From: a virus
Direction: 5' to 3' (one strand)
Virus record (IMG/VR): IMGVR_UViG_3300027749_000411
Span: 1 to 27,976 of that record
Length of the DNA: 27,976 nucleotides
Position numbers and translations under genes: made by a program. Below, in pieces: positions 2,844 through 9,843 of this stretch (its first letter is position 1; every line of letters begins with the position of its first letter). The notes beneath the pieces were generated by a model. That model was not told the origin of the DNA, ran no database searches, and saw nothing but the letters and a program-made list of their open reading frames with translations.

Positions 2844-3161
2844 ATGAAAACATCTTTTTATGACCTGCCCCATGAAACCCGCTTTCAAGTGTATGGTGCG
2901 CTCAAAGCCTTAGACTGCGACACGGGCCAAAGCGGATACTCTGGTCAATTGTGCGTTGCCGTTGCCCGTGGCAAGTTCGGTGATGTGGTGCAAGCTCTGG
3001 AAAAACTAGGCTTTGACCTTGTGACCAGCTACTATTTCCCCCTGGGCACTGATAAGCCCCCAATGCACCTGCGGCATGATTCCGCACGGTATGGCAGCCA
3101 AAATTGCAATTGGTTTTATGCTTGTTTTGAAGTCAAAGAGGTGGAAACATGCAACACATAA
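2844..3161 (+). CDS. Hypothetical early protein
   Basis: 105 residues, soluble, with no motif I can assign. A repeated pattern of small hydrophobic segments (FQVYGALKAL, VVQALEKLGFDLV) suggests an alpha/beta fold. The last 13 bases overlap the next gene. The start is fixed by the GGAG of the leader motif. Confidence 0.6.
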   Translation: MKTSFYDLPHETRFQVYGALKALDCDTGQSGYSGQLCVAVARGKFGDVVQALEKLGFDLVTSYYFPLGTDKPPMHLRHDSARYGSQNCNWFYACFEVKEVETCNT

Positions 3162-3343
3162 AATTGCCCGACTTGAATCCCACTACCAGGGTGTACCCCC
3201 GCACACTAGAAGAAGCATTCCCCCAAGATGCGTGGGAATCTGTGGATAAGACTGTGGATAAGGTAAACCCTGATGATGTGCTTTACCTAGTAGCCCTTTT
3301 CAGTCTAGGGTTTTTGCTTGGCTTGCTAGTGGGCGAGCTGTAA
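3149..3343 (+). CDS. Small single-pass membrane protein with a YPRTLEEAF motif
   Basis: 64 residues. The N-terminal TTRVYPRTLEEAFPQDA is a motif I recall from many small phage proteins of unknown role. Residues about 43-62 (DVLYLVALFSLGFLLGLLV) form one hydrophobic helix ending four residues before the C-terminus. It is probably an inner-membrane protein with most of its chain in the cytoplasm. A GAGG stands seven to ten bases upstream of the ATG. The codons for residues 31-38 (SVDKTVDK) are also two consensus DnaA boxes in tandem. Confidence 0.7.
   Translation: MQHIKLPDLNPTTRVYPRTLEEAFPQDAWESVDKTVDKVNPDDVLYLVALFSLGFLLGLLVGEL
3241..3261. promoter_or_regulatory. Tandem pair of consensus DnaA boxes
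   Basis: TGTGGATAA occurs at 3241-3249 and again at 3253-3261, both the exact reverse complement of the DnaA box TTATCCACA, 12 bases apart. They lie inside the coding sequence of the small membrane protein. Together with the inverted pair at 3634-3652 they form a cluster far denser than chance for a nine-base word. Confidence 0.55.
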
Positions 3344-3348
3344 CATTA

Positions 3349-3456
3349 GCCCCGTTGTCGTTGCGGACAGCACATGAAAGCCATTTACACATGCCTCGCC
3401 CCGTCTTCGGGGTTCCGCAACGGGGCAGTTGTAAGTGGCTTTTTTATTGTCCGCAG
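3349..3456 (+). terminator. Large nested hairpin with an intrinsic terminator and a competing arm
   Basis: Three stems nest. TGCGGACA (3362-3369) pairs with TGTCCGCA (3448-3455). AAAGCCATTTACA (3377-3389) pairs with TGTAAGTGGCTTT (3430-3442), with one G-U pair and six T residues at 3440-3445. Inside, CCCCG (3399-3403) pairs with CGGGG (3408-3412). The middle stem plus T-run is a rightward terminator. The upstream strand GCCCCGTTGTCGTTGCGG (3349-3366) can instead pair with CCGCAACGGGGC (3415-3426), opening the terminator, so attenuation is possible. Confidence 0.65.
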
Positions 3457-3688
3457 CAAAGCACGGGGGCATCACCCACCCCTTGTAAATGTTGATGCGA
3501 CAGATACAGATAAGCGTGACGAACTGGCCTTGTGTCTCCTGGGTGAGCATCCCTCGGGGCAGCGACAAGTCGGGTTTAGCAAGGGGGCTGCCCCCAAGCT
3601 GAATAGTCTAGATAAACGAGAGCATCTATCCCTTGTGGATAACTTACCCACAGGTTCCCCCTCGGGTGGATGCCCCATGCGTGATTGA
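3374..3688 (+). CDS. Possible Ash/Icd-like ORF overlapping the hairpin
   Basis: A 104-codon frame fills the gap between the membrane protein and the HNH gene exactly, in the same direction. Its style (GFFIVRSKARGHHPP, then LLGEHPSGQRQVGF) reminds me of Ash/Icd-like phage ORFs, which have an FFCVVR segment and an AGQPSGWP-type segment and lie over regulatory RNA regions in P4-like elements. Against it: no good ribosome site, and the ATG lies inside the terminator stem region. The match is from memory only. It could equally be non-coding sequence. Confidence 0.35.
   Translation: MKAIYTCLAPSSGFRNGAVVSGFFIVRSKARGHHPPLVNVDATDTDKRDELALCLLGEHPSGQRQVGFSKGAAPKLNSLDKREHLSLVDNLPTGSPSGGCPMRD
3583..3595. 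other. GC-rich hairpin in candidate origin region
   Basis: GGGGG-CTG-CCCCC, extended on both sides by AGC-AA and AA-GCT (3578-3600), forms a compact stem. No T-run follows, so it is not a terminator. It lies about 40 bases before the inverted DnaA-box pair. Confidence 0.35.
3634..3652. promoter_or_regulatory. Inverted pair of DnaA boxes
   Basis: TGTGGATAA (3634-3642, exact consensus on the minus strand) and TTACCCACA (3644-3652, one mismatch from TTATCCACA on the plus strand) face each other across a single C. This palindromic arrangement, 370 bases after a tandem pair, suggests a site where host DnaA binds, either for replication or for control of the following gene. Confidence 0.5.
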
Positions 3689-3698
3689 AAGGTTAAAA

Positions 3699-4091
3699 GT
3701 GAATAAAAAAAATACAAGGTTAGCCCTAAAGATTAGAAAGAAGGCGATGGTCAGAGCTTGGCAGGACAAGGCTGACCAGTTAAGCCCAGAAGAAATTGTC
3801 ACCAATGTGTATGTGGTGAGCAGAAAGTTTATTCAAAGCCCCGAATGGAAAGCACTAAGGCTTGAAGCAATCAAGAGGTATGGCAGTGTTTGCTGTAAAT
3901 GTGGAAGAAAACCTAGCAGAAGATACCCAGTGAACATTGACCATATAAAGCCCCGCAGGTACTACCCAGAGTTGGCATTGGACATAAACAATTTACAGCC
4001 CCTATGCCCCCCATGCAACAAGAAGAAGGGCAACAAGCCCCCAACGGACTACCGTAGCCCTTGTATGCCTGAAAGGAAAGTAGCCACATGA
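3699..4091 (+). CDS. HNH endonuclease
   Basis: 130 residues from GTG 3699, with GAAAGG six bases upstream; the in-frame TTG at 3633 lies inside the DnaA-box region and lacks a ribosome site. The HNH/zinc finger is complete: C65-x2-C68, the DHI core (D81-H82), NNLQ at 97-100 and C103-x2-C106 followed by NKKKGNK. The N-terminal 30 residues are strongly basic. It probably cuts DNA. Being outside the packaging module it is more likely an early nuclease (host DNA attack or a free-standing homing enzyme) than a terminase partner. The ATGA overlap with the next gene implies coupling. Confidence 0.85.
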   Translation: MNKKNTRLALKIRKKAMVRAWQDKADQLSPEEIVTNVYVVSRKFIQSPEWKALRLEAIKRYGSVCCKCGRKPSRRYPVNIDHIKPRRYYPELALDINNLQPLCPPCNKKKGNKPPTDYRSPCMPERKVAT

Positions 4092-5306: not shown

Positions 5307-5522
5307 ATGAAACTCTGTATTGATTGCAAACATTTTGCGATGGAGAAGCACTCCATCAACCCTGAGCTTGGCAGATGCACCGTCATACGGGCCACAAGCC
5401 TTGTAACGGGCCTTATAGTGCCTCTTGATACCTTGCCCTTCTGCGCCATACAACGCTGCTCTAACAAGCCCTGCGGACATGATGCTGTGCTGTTTGAACA
5501 GAAGGAGGCCAGCAATGTCTGA
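5307..5522 (+). CDS. Cys-rich small protein, putative zinc binder
   Basis: 71 residues with C4-x2-C7, C24, C46, C51 and C56 (CIDCKHF, GRC, PFCAIQRC, CGHDAVLFE). This layout matches a common phage mini-protein with an N-terminal CxxC and a C-terminal CGxxxxxFE; zinc binding is inferred. AAAGGA stands nine to fourteen bases upstream. It precedes the exonuclease and overlaps it by eight bases, so it is co-expressed with the recombination genes. Confidence 0.75.
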   Translation: MKLCIDCKHFAMEKHSINPELGRCTVIRATSLVTGLIVPLDTLPFCAIQRCSNKPCGHDAVLFEQKEASNV

Positions 5523-6408
5523 CTTCAGCCCAGAAACCCGAAACAGTGCATGGTGGTCAGGAGACTCTCGCCGTGCTGCCAGTGGCAAAGCCAACGAAGT
5601 CATCCTCACCAAGCAAGGCAAGATGGAGATTCCAGACCTGTCCAACATCGAAGCTGTCCAGATGGGTCATGTGATGGAGCCAGTGATAGGTAGGCTGGTG
5701 CAGGACAAGCTCAAGATTGAGTTGACCAAGATAGAGGAGGCCTACACCCACCCCAAGCATTCCTGGATGCGCTCACACTTTGATTTCGGAGGCAGGGAGA
5801 ATGGTCAAAAGATTCTTGTGGAATGTAAGAACTACACGATGGCGGTTCGCAGTAAGTTTGACGATTCTGGCCTCGCACCTGCTGCTGATGTTGCTCAAGT
5901 CATCCACGAAGCAGCCGTCATGGGTGTGGAGAAAGTCTATCTGGCTATCCTATTTGGGGGCCAGGAGCTTGTCATCATTCCTTACCAAGTCACCGACTCC
6001 CAAAAAGAGGAGCTGGTTCAGCAGATGGCTGTCTATTGGGGCCATGTTGCCGCCGGAACAACGCTTCCCCCCGAGACTCCGGAACAGGCACGACTGATAT
6101 ACCCGACAGGGTTGGACAACACCAAAATGGCCTCCAGGAGCGTAGAAGAGGCTTGCCGCACCCTACAGGTGGTCAAGGGCCAGATAAAGGCTCTAGAGGC
6201 CCAGGAAGCGGCTTTGATGACCCTTGTGCAAGGTTACATGCAGGACTGCAACCAACTCGCTACCTTTGACGGTTCTGTGCTGGCTACGTGGAAGAACGCT
6301 AAACACAGTGAGAGGTTTGACAGCAAGCTGTTTCAGTCTGCCATGCCGGATGTGTACGAGAAGTTTGTTGTCAACGTCCCAGGTTCACGGAGGTTCTTAG
6401 TCAAATGA
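5515..6408 (+). CDS. YqaJ-type viral exonuclease (lambda Exo fold)
   Basis: 297 residues from ATG 5515, chosen because GAAGGAGG lies six bases upstream. The SAWWSGDSRRAASG start is typical of this family. Catalytic residues of the PD-(D/E)XK nuclease fold are visible: E55 in MGHVMEP, D90 in SHFDFGG, and E103-x-K105 in LVECKN. These enzymes chew one strand of double-stranded DNA from an end and load an annealing protein. Residues 205-260 form a helical C-terminal part. It is paired here with a RecT-type protein two small genes downstream, making a two-component recombinase for strand annealing, repair and concatemer formation. Confidence 0.9.
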   Translation: MSDFSPETRNSAWWSGDSRRAASGKANEVILTKQGKMEIPDLSNIEAVQMGHVMEPVIGRLVQDKLKIELTKIEEAYTHPKHSWMRSHFDFGGRENGQKILVECKNYTMAVRSKFDDSGLAPAADVAQVIHEAAVMGVEKVYLAILFGGQELVIIPYQVTDSQKEELVQQMAVYWGHVAAGTTLPPETPEQARLIYPTGLDNTKMASRSVEEACRTLQVVKGQIKALEAQEAALMTLVQGYMQDCNQLATFDGSVLATWKNAKHSERFDSKLFQSAMPDVYEKFVVNVPGSRRFLVK

Positions 6409-6644
6409 AAGCCTATCCCTTTATTCACAAACACCCCACCACTGGCAACACCAAGCTGGAGGAGGGCATGGATTTGCGTGACTGGTTTGCTGGTCTTGCC
6501 ATGCAAGGTTTGCTAGCTAATCCCAAGTTAGCAGAAGAGATAAGAAAACAAGGCGGTGCTTATTCAGGTTGGATTGAAGATTCAGCCTACTCATGGGCAG
6601 ACGCAATGATGAAACAACGGGAGGTCAAGCATGACCAACCTTAG
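6405..6644 (+). CDS. Small phage protein with a GMDLRDWFAG motif
   Basis: 79 residues. GMDLRDWFAGLAMQGLLANP followed by a C-terminal AYSWADAMMKQR is a widespread phage signature of unknown function. The protein is probably helical and soluble. The ATG overlaps the exonuclease stop (ATGA). Its place between exonuclease and RecT suggests expression with them, not necessarily a recombination role. Confidence 0.8.
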   Translation: MKAYPFIHKHPTTGNTKLEEGMDLRDWFAGLAMQGLLANPKLAEEIRKQGGAYSGWIEDSAYSWADAMMKQREVKHDQP

Positions 6645-6711
6645 CATTTACATCATGGCCTTTTGTTCCCTGATTGACCTAACCATAACCATTTTGGAGA
6701 AACTCTTATGA
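6631..6711 (+). CDS. 26-residue hydrophobic peptide coupled to recT
   Basis: A 26-codon frame from ATG 6631 with GGGAGG six bases upstream, better than many annotated starts here. The peptide is almost wholly hydrophobic after residue 3 (YIMAFCSLIDLTITILEKLL), so it could be one membrane helix. Its TGA overlaps the recT ATG (ATGA), so translation of the peptide could drive RecT translation. It also contains the CTAACC leader motif within its codons. Confidence 0.5.
   Translation: MTNLSIYIMAFCSLIDLTITILEKLL
6677..6698 (+). promoter_or_regulatory. Repeated early leader motif, copy 6 (degenerate)
   Basis: ACCTAACCATAACC followed by ATTTTGGAG gives the recT ribosome site, with GGAG about nine bases before the ATG at 6708. 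The CTAACC unit is shared with the copies further left. Confidence 0.45.
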
Positions 6712-7565
6712 GCAACATTGTTCCACTCGCAGACATTCAGAAGATGGCAGAAGTTGCTGCCACTAGCAAGATGTTTGGGTTTAAGAACCCACAGGAGGCG
6801 ATGGCAATCATGTTGCTGTGCCAAGCTGAGAACCTACACCCGGCAATAGCCATGCGGGATTTTCATGTCATCGAGGGCCGTCCAGCTCTGAAAGCAGATG
6901 CAATGCTGGCAAGGTTCCAGCAAGCTGGTGGAAAAGTTGAATGGAAGGTATACACAGATGCAGAAGTTACAGGCGTATTTAGCCACCCTCAAGGGAGTTC
7001 GCTTGAAGTCACTTGGACGCTCGCCCAGGCGAAATCCATTGGTATCGCAGGTAAAAACAACTGGAAAAACTATCCACGTGCAATGCTTAGGGCCAGGTGT
7101 TTATCAGAGGGTATCCGTGCGGTCTATCCGGGTTGCGTGGTTGGGGTATACACACCCGAAGAGGTACAAGACTTTGAACCCCGCAAGACGGTGGATATGG
7201 GAACAGTCGAACGTGTTGATGAAGTCCCGCAAGATGTGGGAGTGGAAGTGGCAGATGGGGCATATCACCTCTTTGTCCCAGGCAACAACAATCCCTACTC
7301 CAGCTATCACACCACAGAAGAATGGATAGATGGTTACTGCTCACTGGTTCACCGCATCTCTGTGTCACCCAAGTTTACTGAAGCAGAGAAAGCTGAGAAG
7401 CTAGACTTGTTAAAGCAGTCAAACATACCCATCACCGCTGAGTTTGACGCATACACAAACATCAAGCTGAAAGGCGAGATTGTCAAAGCTGGAGGGACTA
7501 TCAACCCCCCAAAGCCGGAACCCCTGCCACCAACAGGTTCGGAACTCAACGAGCCAATATTTTGA
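6708..7565 (+). CDS. RecT-family single-strand annealing protein
   Basis: 285 residues. The core at about 20-165 has the RecT pattern: FGFKNPQEAMAIMLLCQAEN, the HVIEGRPALKADAMLARF block, and W-KNYPRAMLRARCLSEG followed by AVYPGCVVGVYTPEE. RecT proteins bind single-stranded DNA made by the partner exonuclease and anneal it to a complementary strand. Residues after 165 are less conserved, charged and proline-rich at the end (NPPKPEPLPPTGSE), as is common for the variable C-terminus. The start is fixed by TTGGAG and the ATGA overlap. The exonuclease encoded from 5515 is the obvious partner. Confidence 0.88.
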   Translation: MSNIVPLADIQKMAEVAATSKMFGFKNPQEAMAIMLLCQAENLHPAIAMRDFHVIEGRPALKADAMLARFQQAGGKVEWKVYTDAEVTGVFSHPQGSSLEVTWTLAQAKSIGIAGKNNWKNYPRAMLRARCLSEGIRAVYPGCVVGVYTPEEVQDFEPRKTVDMGTVERVDEVPQDVGVEVADGAYHLFVPGNNNPYSSYHTTEEWIDGYCSLVHRISVSPKFTEAEKAEKLDLLKQSNIPITAEFDAYTNIKLKGEIVKAGGTINPPKPEPLPPTGSELNEPIF

Positions 7566-8617: not shown

Positions 8618-9364
8618 ATGAGCAAAGCACACGTATTTATCGCCACACCTATGTATGGCGGCATGTGTACCGGGTACTTCACCCAGTCACTGCTGACAGC
8701 CGCAGGTGTACTGCGCCAGAATGACATTGACATGAGTTTTAGCTGCATGTTTAACGAGAGCCTTATCCAGCGGGGCAGGAATGCACTTGCACACGGGTTC
8801 ATGCAAAAGAAGGATGCAACCCACTTAATGTTCATAGATGCAGATATTCGCTTCAACCCAGCAGACATTGTGAAGATGCTGGAAGCTGATGTTGATGTTA
8901 TCTGTGGCATGTATCCCAAGAAAGAAATCAACTGGGCAGGTGTTGAGCAAGCCGTGAAAGAGGGAGTACCGCAAGACCAGCTCAAAACCCGCACAGGCTC
9001 TCTAGTTGTCAATCTGGTGGACTACAAGGGTGCAGTCACTGTACCTGCTGACAAGCCTGTAGAGATATGGAATGGCGGTACAGGGTTCATGCTCATCAAG
9101 CGTGAGGCAATGGAGAAGCTCTCCACCCTCATGCCAAGCTATGTCAATGACGTAACTTTTCTGGACGGCACTATCAAGCAAGACCGCATTGTTGAATACT
9201 TTGCTTGCGGCATTGAGCCTGGCACAGAGCGGTTGTTGTCAGAGGACTACTATTTCTGCATCAAGTGCCGGGAGCATGGCATCAAAGTGTATGCCGCACC
9301 CTGGGCAGTTCTGGGCCACTTTGGGACGTACTTGTTTGAGGGCGGCTTGCTGCCAGCGCCATGA
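8618..9364 (+). CDS. GT-A-fold glycosyltransferase
   Basis: 248 residues. Visible features are a FIATPMYGG start, the metal-binding DxD in MFIDADIRF (D74, D76), GGTGFMLIKRE at about 153-163, SEDYYFC at 208-214, and H233 in LGHFGTY. This order is typical of family-2-like phage glycosyltransferases that move a sugar from a nucleotide donor. The acceptor (phage DNA, virion protein or host surface) cannot be told. AAGGA is upstream. The stop overlaps the methyltransferase start (ATGA), so the two enzymes act as a pair or at least are made together. Confidence 0.85.
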   Translation: MSKAHVFIATPMYGGMCTGYFTQSLLTAAGVLRQNDIDMSFSCMFNESLIQRGRNALAHGFMQKKDATHLMFIDADIRFNPADIVKMLEADVDVICGMYPKKEINWAGVEQAVKEGVPQDQLKTRTGSLVVNLVDYKGAVTVPADKPVEIWNGGTGFMLIKREAMEKLSTLMPSYVNDVTFLDGTIKQDRIVEYFACGIEPGTERLLSEDYYFCIKCREHGIKVYAAPWAVLGHFGTYLFEGGLLPAP

Positions 9365-9843
9365 CGATAGCTCTGGACTTGGGATGCGGTAGCAGATACC
9401 GCAACCACTACAACGCTGATACTCTGATAGGCCTAGACCAGTTCCCTGTGGCTGACTTGCAAGCTGACCTGGTGTGGGAGCCTATTCCCTGCCTGGACAA
9501 CTCCTATGACTACATCACTGCGTTTGATTTCATAGAACACATGCCACGGGTTATCTATGTAGATAAACAAGCCAAGTACCCGTTCATAGACCTGATGAAC
9601 GAGATATGGAGAGTGCTTGTGCCGGGTGGGTTGTTCTACTCATCCACCCCGGCATTCCCACATGCAGCCGCTTTCCAAGACCCGACTCATGTCAACATCA
9701 TCACGCCAGATACCTGGGGTGAATACTTTGATGACAAGAAGCGGTGGGCCAGCCGCTATGGGTTTGTCGGTGCATTTCAGATTGAAAGCATAGGCTATCA
9801 CGGCCCACACTTGCAGTGTGAGATGCGTAAGGTCAGCGTTTAG
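9361..9843 (+). CDS. Class I SAM-dependent methyltransferase
   Basis: 160 residues. Motif I is LDLGCG (5-10), the acidic loop is IGLD (23-26), the middle motif is YITAFDFIEHM (51-61), and EIWRVLVPGG (81-90) is the post-motif helix typical of small-molecule or sugar methyltransferases. No DNA-methylase catalytic (D/N)PPY motif is visible, so it is more likely a sugar or small-molecule enzyme than a restriction-type one. Coupled to the upstream glycosyltransferase, it may methylate the transferred sugar. Its end overlaps a convergent leftward gene by 11 bases. Confidence 0.85.
   Translation: MTIALDLGCGSRYRNHYNADTLIGLDQFPVADLQADLVWEPIPCLDNSYDYITAFDFIEHMPRVIYVDKQAKYPFIDLMNEIWRVLVPGGLFYSSTPAFPHAAAFQDPTHVNIITPDTWGEYFDDKKRWASRYGFVGAFQIESIGYHGPHLQCEMRKVSV

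Follow-up and report, generated by a model that had tools for sequence, protein, structure and literature searches.

Gene content and DnaA boxes of the locus

The window analysed here, the whole 27,976-base stretch of viral DNA, is a linear record in which end repeats are absent, and it is probably a fragment of a genome. Its rightward early genes encode a SprT-like protein, an HNH endonuclease, a YqaJ/RecE-type exonuclease and RecT, and its leftward late genes include that for the major head protein at the right and, near 10.2 kb, an open reading frame judged by eye to be endolysin-like. Neither terminase nor portal genes were found within the 27,976 bases. At the convergence of early and late genes, a glycosyltransferase-like protein (PHROG 1574) is encoded at 8618-9364 and is adjoined by a methyltransferase-like reading frame at 9361-9843. 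The features of the locus are as follows.

3149-3343, plus strand: small open reading frame of 64 codons (MQHIKLPDL...ESVDKTVDK...) with a hydrophobic C-terminus, holding the tandem boxes; encoded at 11 viral loci
3241-3249, minus strand: exact DnaA box TTATCCACA, kept in all aligned relatives
3253-3261, minus strand: exact DnaA box TTATCCACA, mostly TTATACACA in relatives, still TTATNCACA despite a D to Y change
3318-3346, plus strand: candidate sigma-70 promoter TTGGCT-17-TAACAT; other freshwater loci have TTGACA-17/18-TANNNT at this position
3354-3446, plus strand: 5' domain, a small hairpin and then a long stem ending TTTTTT (terminator-like); fold z -5.8, common to relatives
3463-3623, plus strand: R1 core, helices PA, PB, PX, P0, P1 and P2, with GATAAACG-type blocks at 3509 and 3611; from covariation and covariance-model match
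3473-3477, plus strand: pseudoknot 5' strand CACCC in the loop of hairpin PA; from covariation
3608-3623, plus strand: conserved block CTAGATAAACGAGAGC; from sequence conservation
3634-3642, minus strand: exact DnaA box TTATCCACA at the R1 3' end; sequence match
3644-3652, plus strand: facing box TTACCCACA with one mismatch, giving with box 3634 a predicted hairpin at 3632-3654
3664-3668, plus strand: pseudoknot 3' strand GGGTG, 3' of the DnaA boxes; from covariation
3699-4091, plus strand: HNH endonuclease gene directly 3' of the R1 locus; GTG start inferred
5425-7565, plus strand: genes for a YqaJ/RecE-type exonuclease and the annealing protein RecT, 3' of R1 and co-directional with it

The initial annotation described three exact boxes and one near box within 412 bases, and their positions were borne out: the window holds no fourth exact copy, dinucleotide shuffles of it contain on average 0.19 exact boxes, and none of 100 shuffles reached three. 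Several TTATNCACA boxes thus lie close together, as at an oriC-type origin. The one-mismatch word is common in the window (33 observed against 30 expected), so the fourth box is weightless by itself and counts only through its position facing box 3634, with which it forms the predicted hairpin (fold z -3.0). The boxes occupy two settings. Those at 3241 and 3253 fall, as had been annotated, within the coding sequence SVDKTVDK of the small reading frame, and those at 3634 and 3644 lie in non-coding DNA at the 3' end of R1, so that two of the four belong to a predicted structured RNA that the annotation had missed.

A predicted structured RNA beside the boxes

At least 119 virus contigs contain an exact copy of the block CTAGATAAACGAGAGC that directly precedes box 3634, with conserved flanks, and upstream extension of its alignment delimits a single element that begins at ACGGGG. 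Judged from covariation, this element, R1, is a non-coding, strongly conserved and previously uncatalogued structured phage RNA, with six helices and a long-range pseudoknot that extends to position 3668, and with strong covariation throughout.

In a sequence-only alignment of 26 freshwater copies, pairing holds in 92.8% of cells across the 29 proposed pairs. The covariation score is 0.664, while shuffles give 0.21 and slid partners no more than 0.17; the helices were first noticed in some of the same sequences, which biases the slid controls somewhat toward them, but the double changes are independent of this bias. RNAalifold recovered the same helices independently and added PX, which pairs in 100% of cells (score 0.879 against 0.273). 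Marine copies pair in 90.3% of cells, with covariation of 0.296 against 0.106. For the pseudoknot, whose 3' strands were taken from a sequence-only alignment, an all-against-all permutation test gave a weak result and a column-based count was used instead, by which 93.8% of cells pair and the score is 0.345 against 0.124; its double changes convert ACCC/GGGU to GCCC/GGGC, AUCC/GGAU, ACCU/AGGU or AACCA/UGGUU. It is covariation that carries the case for an RNA, because the truncated R1 core, folded as a single sequence, is as stable as its shuffles (z 0.04). Protein coding was rejected as the cause of conservation, since no frame is free of stops in most relatives, and for the same reason the reading frame at 3374-3688 of the window is attributed to chance.

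Occurrence of R1

A covariance model built from freshwater copies alone gives marine copies 57-87 bits, and marine and other copies together 57-103 bits, whereas sequences that contain the 16-mer by chance score no higher than about 20 bits; the R1 of the window, which is one of the model's own sequences, scores 162.5 bits. When an independent sample was drawn by a 5' pattern without use of the 3' motif, 92 of its 93 new loci matched the model at 50 bits or more. R1 is present in about 200 uncultivated phage contigs, and a blastn comparison with 50,697 annotated phage records placed it in one alone, MW202825.1 (ctah5458).

Several other identities were considered and rejected. An element of host genomes is not indicated by the 20 exact motif matches in 257 Gb, only one of which is R1 (80.7 bits, on a phage-like contig), the others scoring about 20 bits or less. 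This one contig (L217, CAKZOO010000124.1), assigned to a Flavobacteriaceae MAG, has a marine-type R1 together with phage-like genes and is probably a mis-binned phage. Origin from a plasmid was rejected because a convincing match is absent among 72,556 plasmids, and a known RNA family was rejected on comparison with Rfam 15, which gave neither a family above the gathering threshold nor a significant sub-threshold match in the window or 20 relatives. A literature search, with subscription papers and supplements outside its reach, returned no description of R1. Whatever its role, R1 provides an RNA core of about 160 positions with much covariation, and a family that current libraries miss.

DnaA boxes in relatives

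Of the 20 non-redundant freshwater types, 10 have exact boxes at the 3' end of R1, a density of 8.7 per kb, and the freshwater flanks contain one exact box in about 113 kb once the window's own reading-frame pair is excluded; sharing within a clade in part reflects common descent, and most of the records are fragments. Among 26 marine contigs with enough sequence, nine have oriC-like box arrays 286-458 bases downstream of R1. These nine hold two to five TTATNCACA at 85-520 bases downstream, with further near boxes, and the arrays are the best box clusters of their contigs. In L171, L178, L185, L203, L129, L165 and L167 the arrays, of exact and near boxes, lie at roughly +280 to +460 from the R1 motif; they come after a homopolymer tract of G or C and are mostly followed by AAAGGT. 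AT excess beside the boxes amounts to 8% and is confined to +80 to +120.

Boxes near R1 therefore recur at varying distances and orientations. They are kept in the 10 of 20 freshwater types and in the clade sharing the small reading frame, but not in the independent sample, in which boxes accompany one of 16 non-redundant R1 loci and are absent from the other 15. It follows that R1 does not need DnaA boxes, and that any claim for DnaA is limited to certain clades.

Relatives of the small reading frame retain box 1, and their box 2 is mostly TGTGTATAA, which encodes VYK through the change of D to Y and still conforms to TTATNCACA. Synonymous change is absent at codons 32, 33, 35 and 36, and at codon 37 there is none within the majority residue; invariant degenerate codons across the frame number 18 of 60. 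The initial annotation held that the word had been kept in codons. Survival of the boxes through an amino-acid change, taken with the codon evidence, is suggestive of this, though not decisive.

Replication genes and GC skew

The window has no recognisable gene for an initiator, a primase or a polymerase, as had been annotated, although this absence proves little by itself because the record is a fragment in which terminase and portal genes are also missing. Across R1 carriers Pol A was found in none of 46 records and DnaB (helicase) in four, leaving 42 of 46 without a phage helicase, and SF2 Helicase_C, IstB/DnaC, D5 and phage O were each found in none of 30; these counts cover R1 carriers alone, and the records are possibly incomplete. 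Exonuclease and annealing genes are present in the R1 phage clades examined. In marine phages a winged-HTH (HTH_36-like) protein adjoins R1 on the opposite strand (L106:6698-7297, L155:2164-2838 and similar), and it might be a private initiator or a repressor.

The GC-skew minimum that an origin at the locus would predict was not found there, the minimum of the fragment lying at 19.5 kb. In ctah5458, the one complete relative, the skew minimum is within about 1-2 kb of R1 and coincides with the divergent gene boundary.

Promoters, genomic position and alternative roles

R1 is carried on a conserved predicted sigma-70 promoter cassette and would be transcribed by host RNA polymerase. Of 26 distinct marine upstream sequences, 24 have TTGNNN-16/17-TANNNT at 6-8 bases before ACGGGG. 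The freshwater promoter, often TTGACA-17/18-TANNNT, is found about 110 bases upstream, with a hairpin and then a long stem ending in a run of T between it and R1. The promoter match in the window, which would place the transcription start near 3354, is weak and is missed by a stricter promoter scan. The terminator-like 5' domain at 3354-3446 is very stable and is conserved among the freshwater clades; it could act as an attenuator or be a small RNA in its own right.

One reading of this arrangement, unlikely in our estimate, gives R1 the part of a leader RNA: it would modify RNA polymerase, through processive antitermination like HK022 put, or control the early operon in another way, and the boxes would be separate or incidental. 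In its favour, marine R1 sits at +1 of a strong promoter in those 24 of 26 upstreams, the early genes downstream, including those for exonuclease and annealing protein, have the orientation of R1, and freshwater phages have a terminator-like stem ahead of R1. The put RNAs of HK022 are about 70 nt long, form two stem-loops, occur in both early operons and act near early promoters (PMC9378689). Marine R1 resembles them as a phage RNA immediately 3' of an early promoter, but R1 is far larger, with six helices and a pseudoknot, has one copy per locus, and is near terminase genes in some phages, including L262, where it lies between terminase and portal genes. Moreover, the freshwater terminator precedes R1 rather than following it, and a leader function leaves both the boxes and the missing replication genes unexplained.

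R1 could also be a phage RNA that acts in trans, for instance by binding RNA polymerase or a host protein or by counteracting a defence system, with the boxes as a clade-specific addition. Its occurrence as a free-standing promoter cassette across varied gene contexts and the lack of boxes in most of the independent sample are in keeping with this, as is an exchange of modules: in three close relatives (L088, L012 and L091) the promoter, 5' domain and reading-frame boxes are common but R1 is replaced by an unrelated-looking module, in the manner of a specificity or arms-race exchange. We nevertheless think a role in trans improbable, since it does not explain why DnaA boxes recur in two clades at different distances. 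The replacement module lies about 30-400 bases after the T run, with one GATAAACG retained in L088, and may represent a second exchangeable RNA family.

The genomic position of R1 bears on a third possibility, that it marks a packaging or terminus region, either as a pRNA-like RNA or as the neighbourhood of cos or pac. Terminase genes adjoin R1 in L262 and in L279, where it lies between TerL and, respectively, a portal gene and a TerS-like gene (the genes of both contigs named by eye), and are about 2.6-4.2 kb away in marine phages; in addition, R1 is no more than about 1.1 kb from a contig end in 11 of 24 long contigs, where 1.5 would be expected. However, the contig ends fall at no single position, R1 matches no Rfam family, and it occupies the early region in the window and in ctah5458 (in marine phages, the early/late divergence), all of which make a packaging role very unlikely. 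The contigs concerned, of 27-59 kb, are L140, L146, L172, L173, L199, L203, L242, L253, L261, L289 and L123, and their ends may reflect a recombination hot spot, an assembly break or a genome end.

Finally, the boxes could be by-products of a GUGGAUAAC RNA hairpin motif and a VDKTVDK protein motif, with DnaA uninvolved, as paired changes in hairpins around box 1 at some freshwater loci, the folding of the box pair as a hairpin and the presence of boxes at some loci only would allow, but this is highly improbable given an exact TTATCCACA with no evident hairpin partner in L074, good boxes in the opposite orientation in L032 and L097, marine arrays outside the RNA, and the preservation of TTATNCACA by TGTGTATAA (VYK).

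A possible origin of replication

The reading we tentatively favour, while rating it somewhat below an even chance, is that a compact origin of phage replication lies here, making use of the host and helped by R1, and that in the clade of the window it depends on DnaA. The original proposal of a phage origin served by host DnaA is borne out in part: the recurrence of boxes and the mostly missing helicase and polymerase genes speak for it, and the single box-bearing locus among 16 and the absence of a skew minimum speak against it. The reading draws on the high density of boxes at the 3' end of R1 (8.7 per kb, compared with roughly one per 113 kb of flank), the oriC-like arrays in nine of 26 marine contigs, the reading-frame boxes kept despite amino-acid change, the scarcity of helicase and polymerase genes among carriers, the covariation, promoters and covariance-model specificity of R1, the skew minimum near R1 in ctah5458, and the precedents of ColE1 and the ABC primosome (PMC5043065, PMC6127211).

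According to this model, host RNA polymerase would make R1, and the folded RNA would help to open the duplex or prime synthesis, roughly like RNA II of ColE1. Host DnaA would bind the boxes, those at 3634 and 3644 as a hairpin or palindrome and those at 3241 and 3253 upstream, and would load host DnaB. The exonuclease and annealing protein could then support later, recombination-dependent replication.

It should be noted that several observations sit uneasily with an origin. Boxes accompany only one of the 16 independent R1 loci, the skew minimum is absent at the window locus, and in L262 and L279 R1 lies beside terminase genes, which is not the expected early-origin place. The freshwater order of promoter, terminator and then R1 leaves the transcription of R1 unexplained, and the winged-HTH protein beside marine R1 could be a private initiator.

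A broader proposal, which we consider doubtful, is that R1 represents a new class of replication-starting phage RNA. Pseudoknotted, promoter-driven and situated at the origin, it would recruit the host replisome or prime it in phages that lack replication proteins of their own, and DnaA boxes would be an optional aid. How small phages without polymerase, helicase or initiator genes begin replication is poorly known, and R1 is a precise, widespread and testable element with which to approach this question.

Comparison with known systems

Like the GOLLD-type orphan RNAs, R1 is large and conserved and has no assigned role (PMC12286853); it differs in matching no Rfam family. Clustered TTATNCACA boxes are shared with bacterial oriC and with plasmid DnaA-box origins, and some marine relatives have arrays of several boxes, but the locus studied here has two plus two boxes and ties them to a predicted structured RNA. 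A DnaA box is also found near the ColE1 origin. There, host RNA polymerase transcribes RNA II, which is non-coding and structured, at an origin without an encoded initiator (PMC5043065). R1 is shorter than RNA II (about 210-340 nt against 550), is phage-borne and matches no known RNA family; it is likewise structured and promoter-driven, and its locus would likewise be an origin. At the A site of the ABC primosome a DnaA box lies in a hairpin stem of single-stranded DNA (PMC6127211). DnaA binding at 3632-3654 is putative and the A site differs in being single-stranded, but by analogy the predicted hairpin formed there by the two facing boxes could load DnaB.
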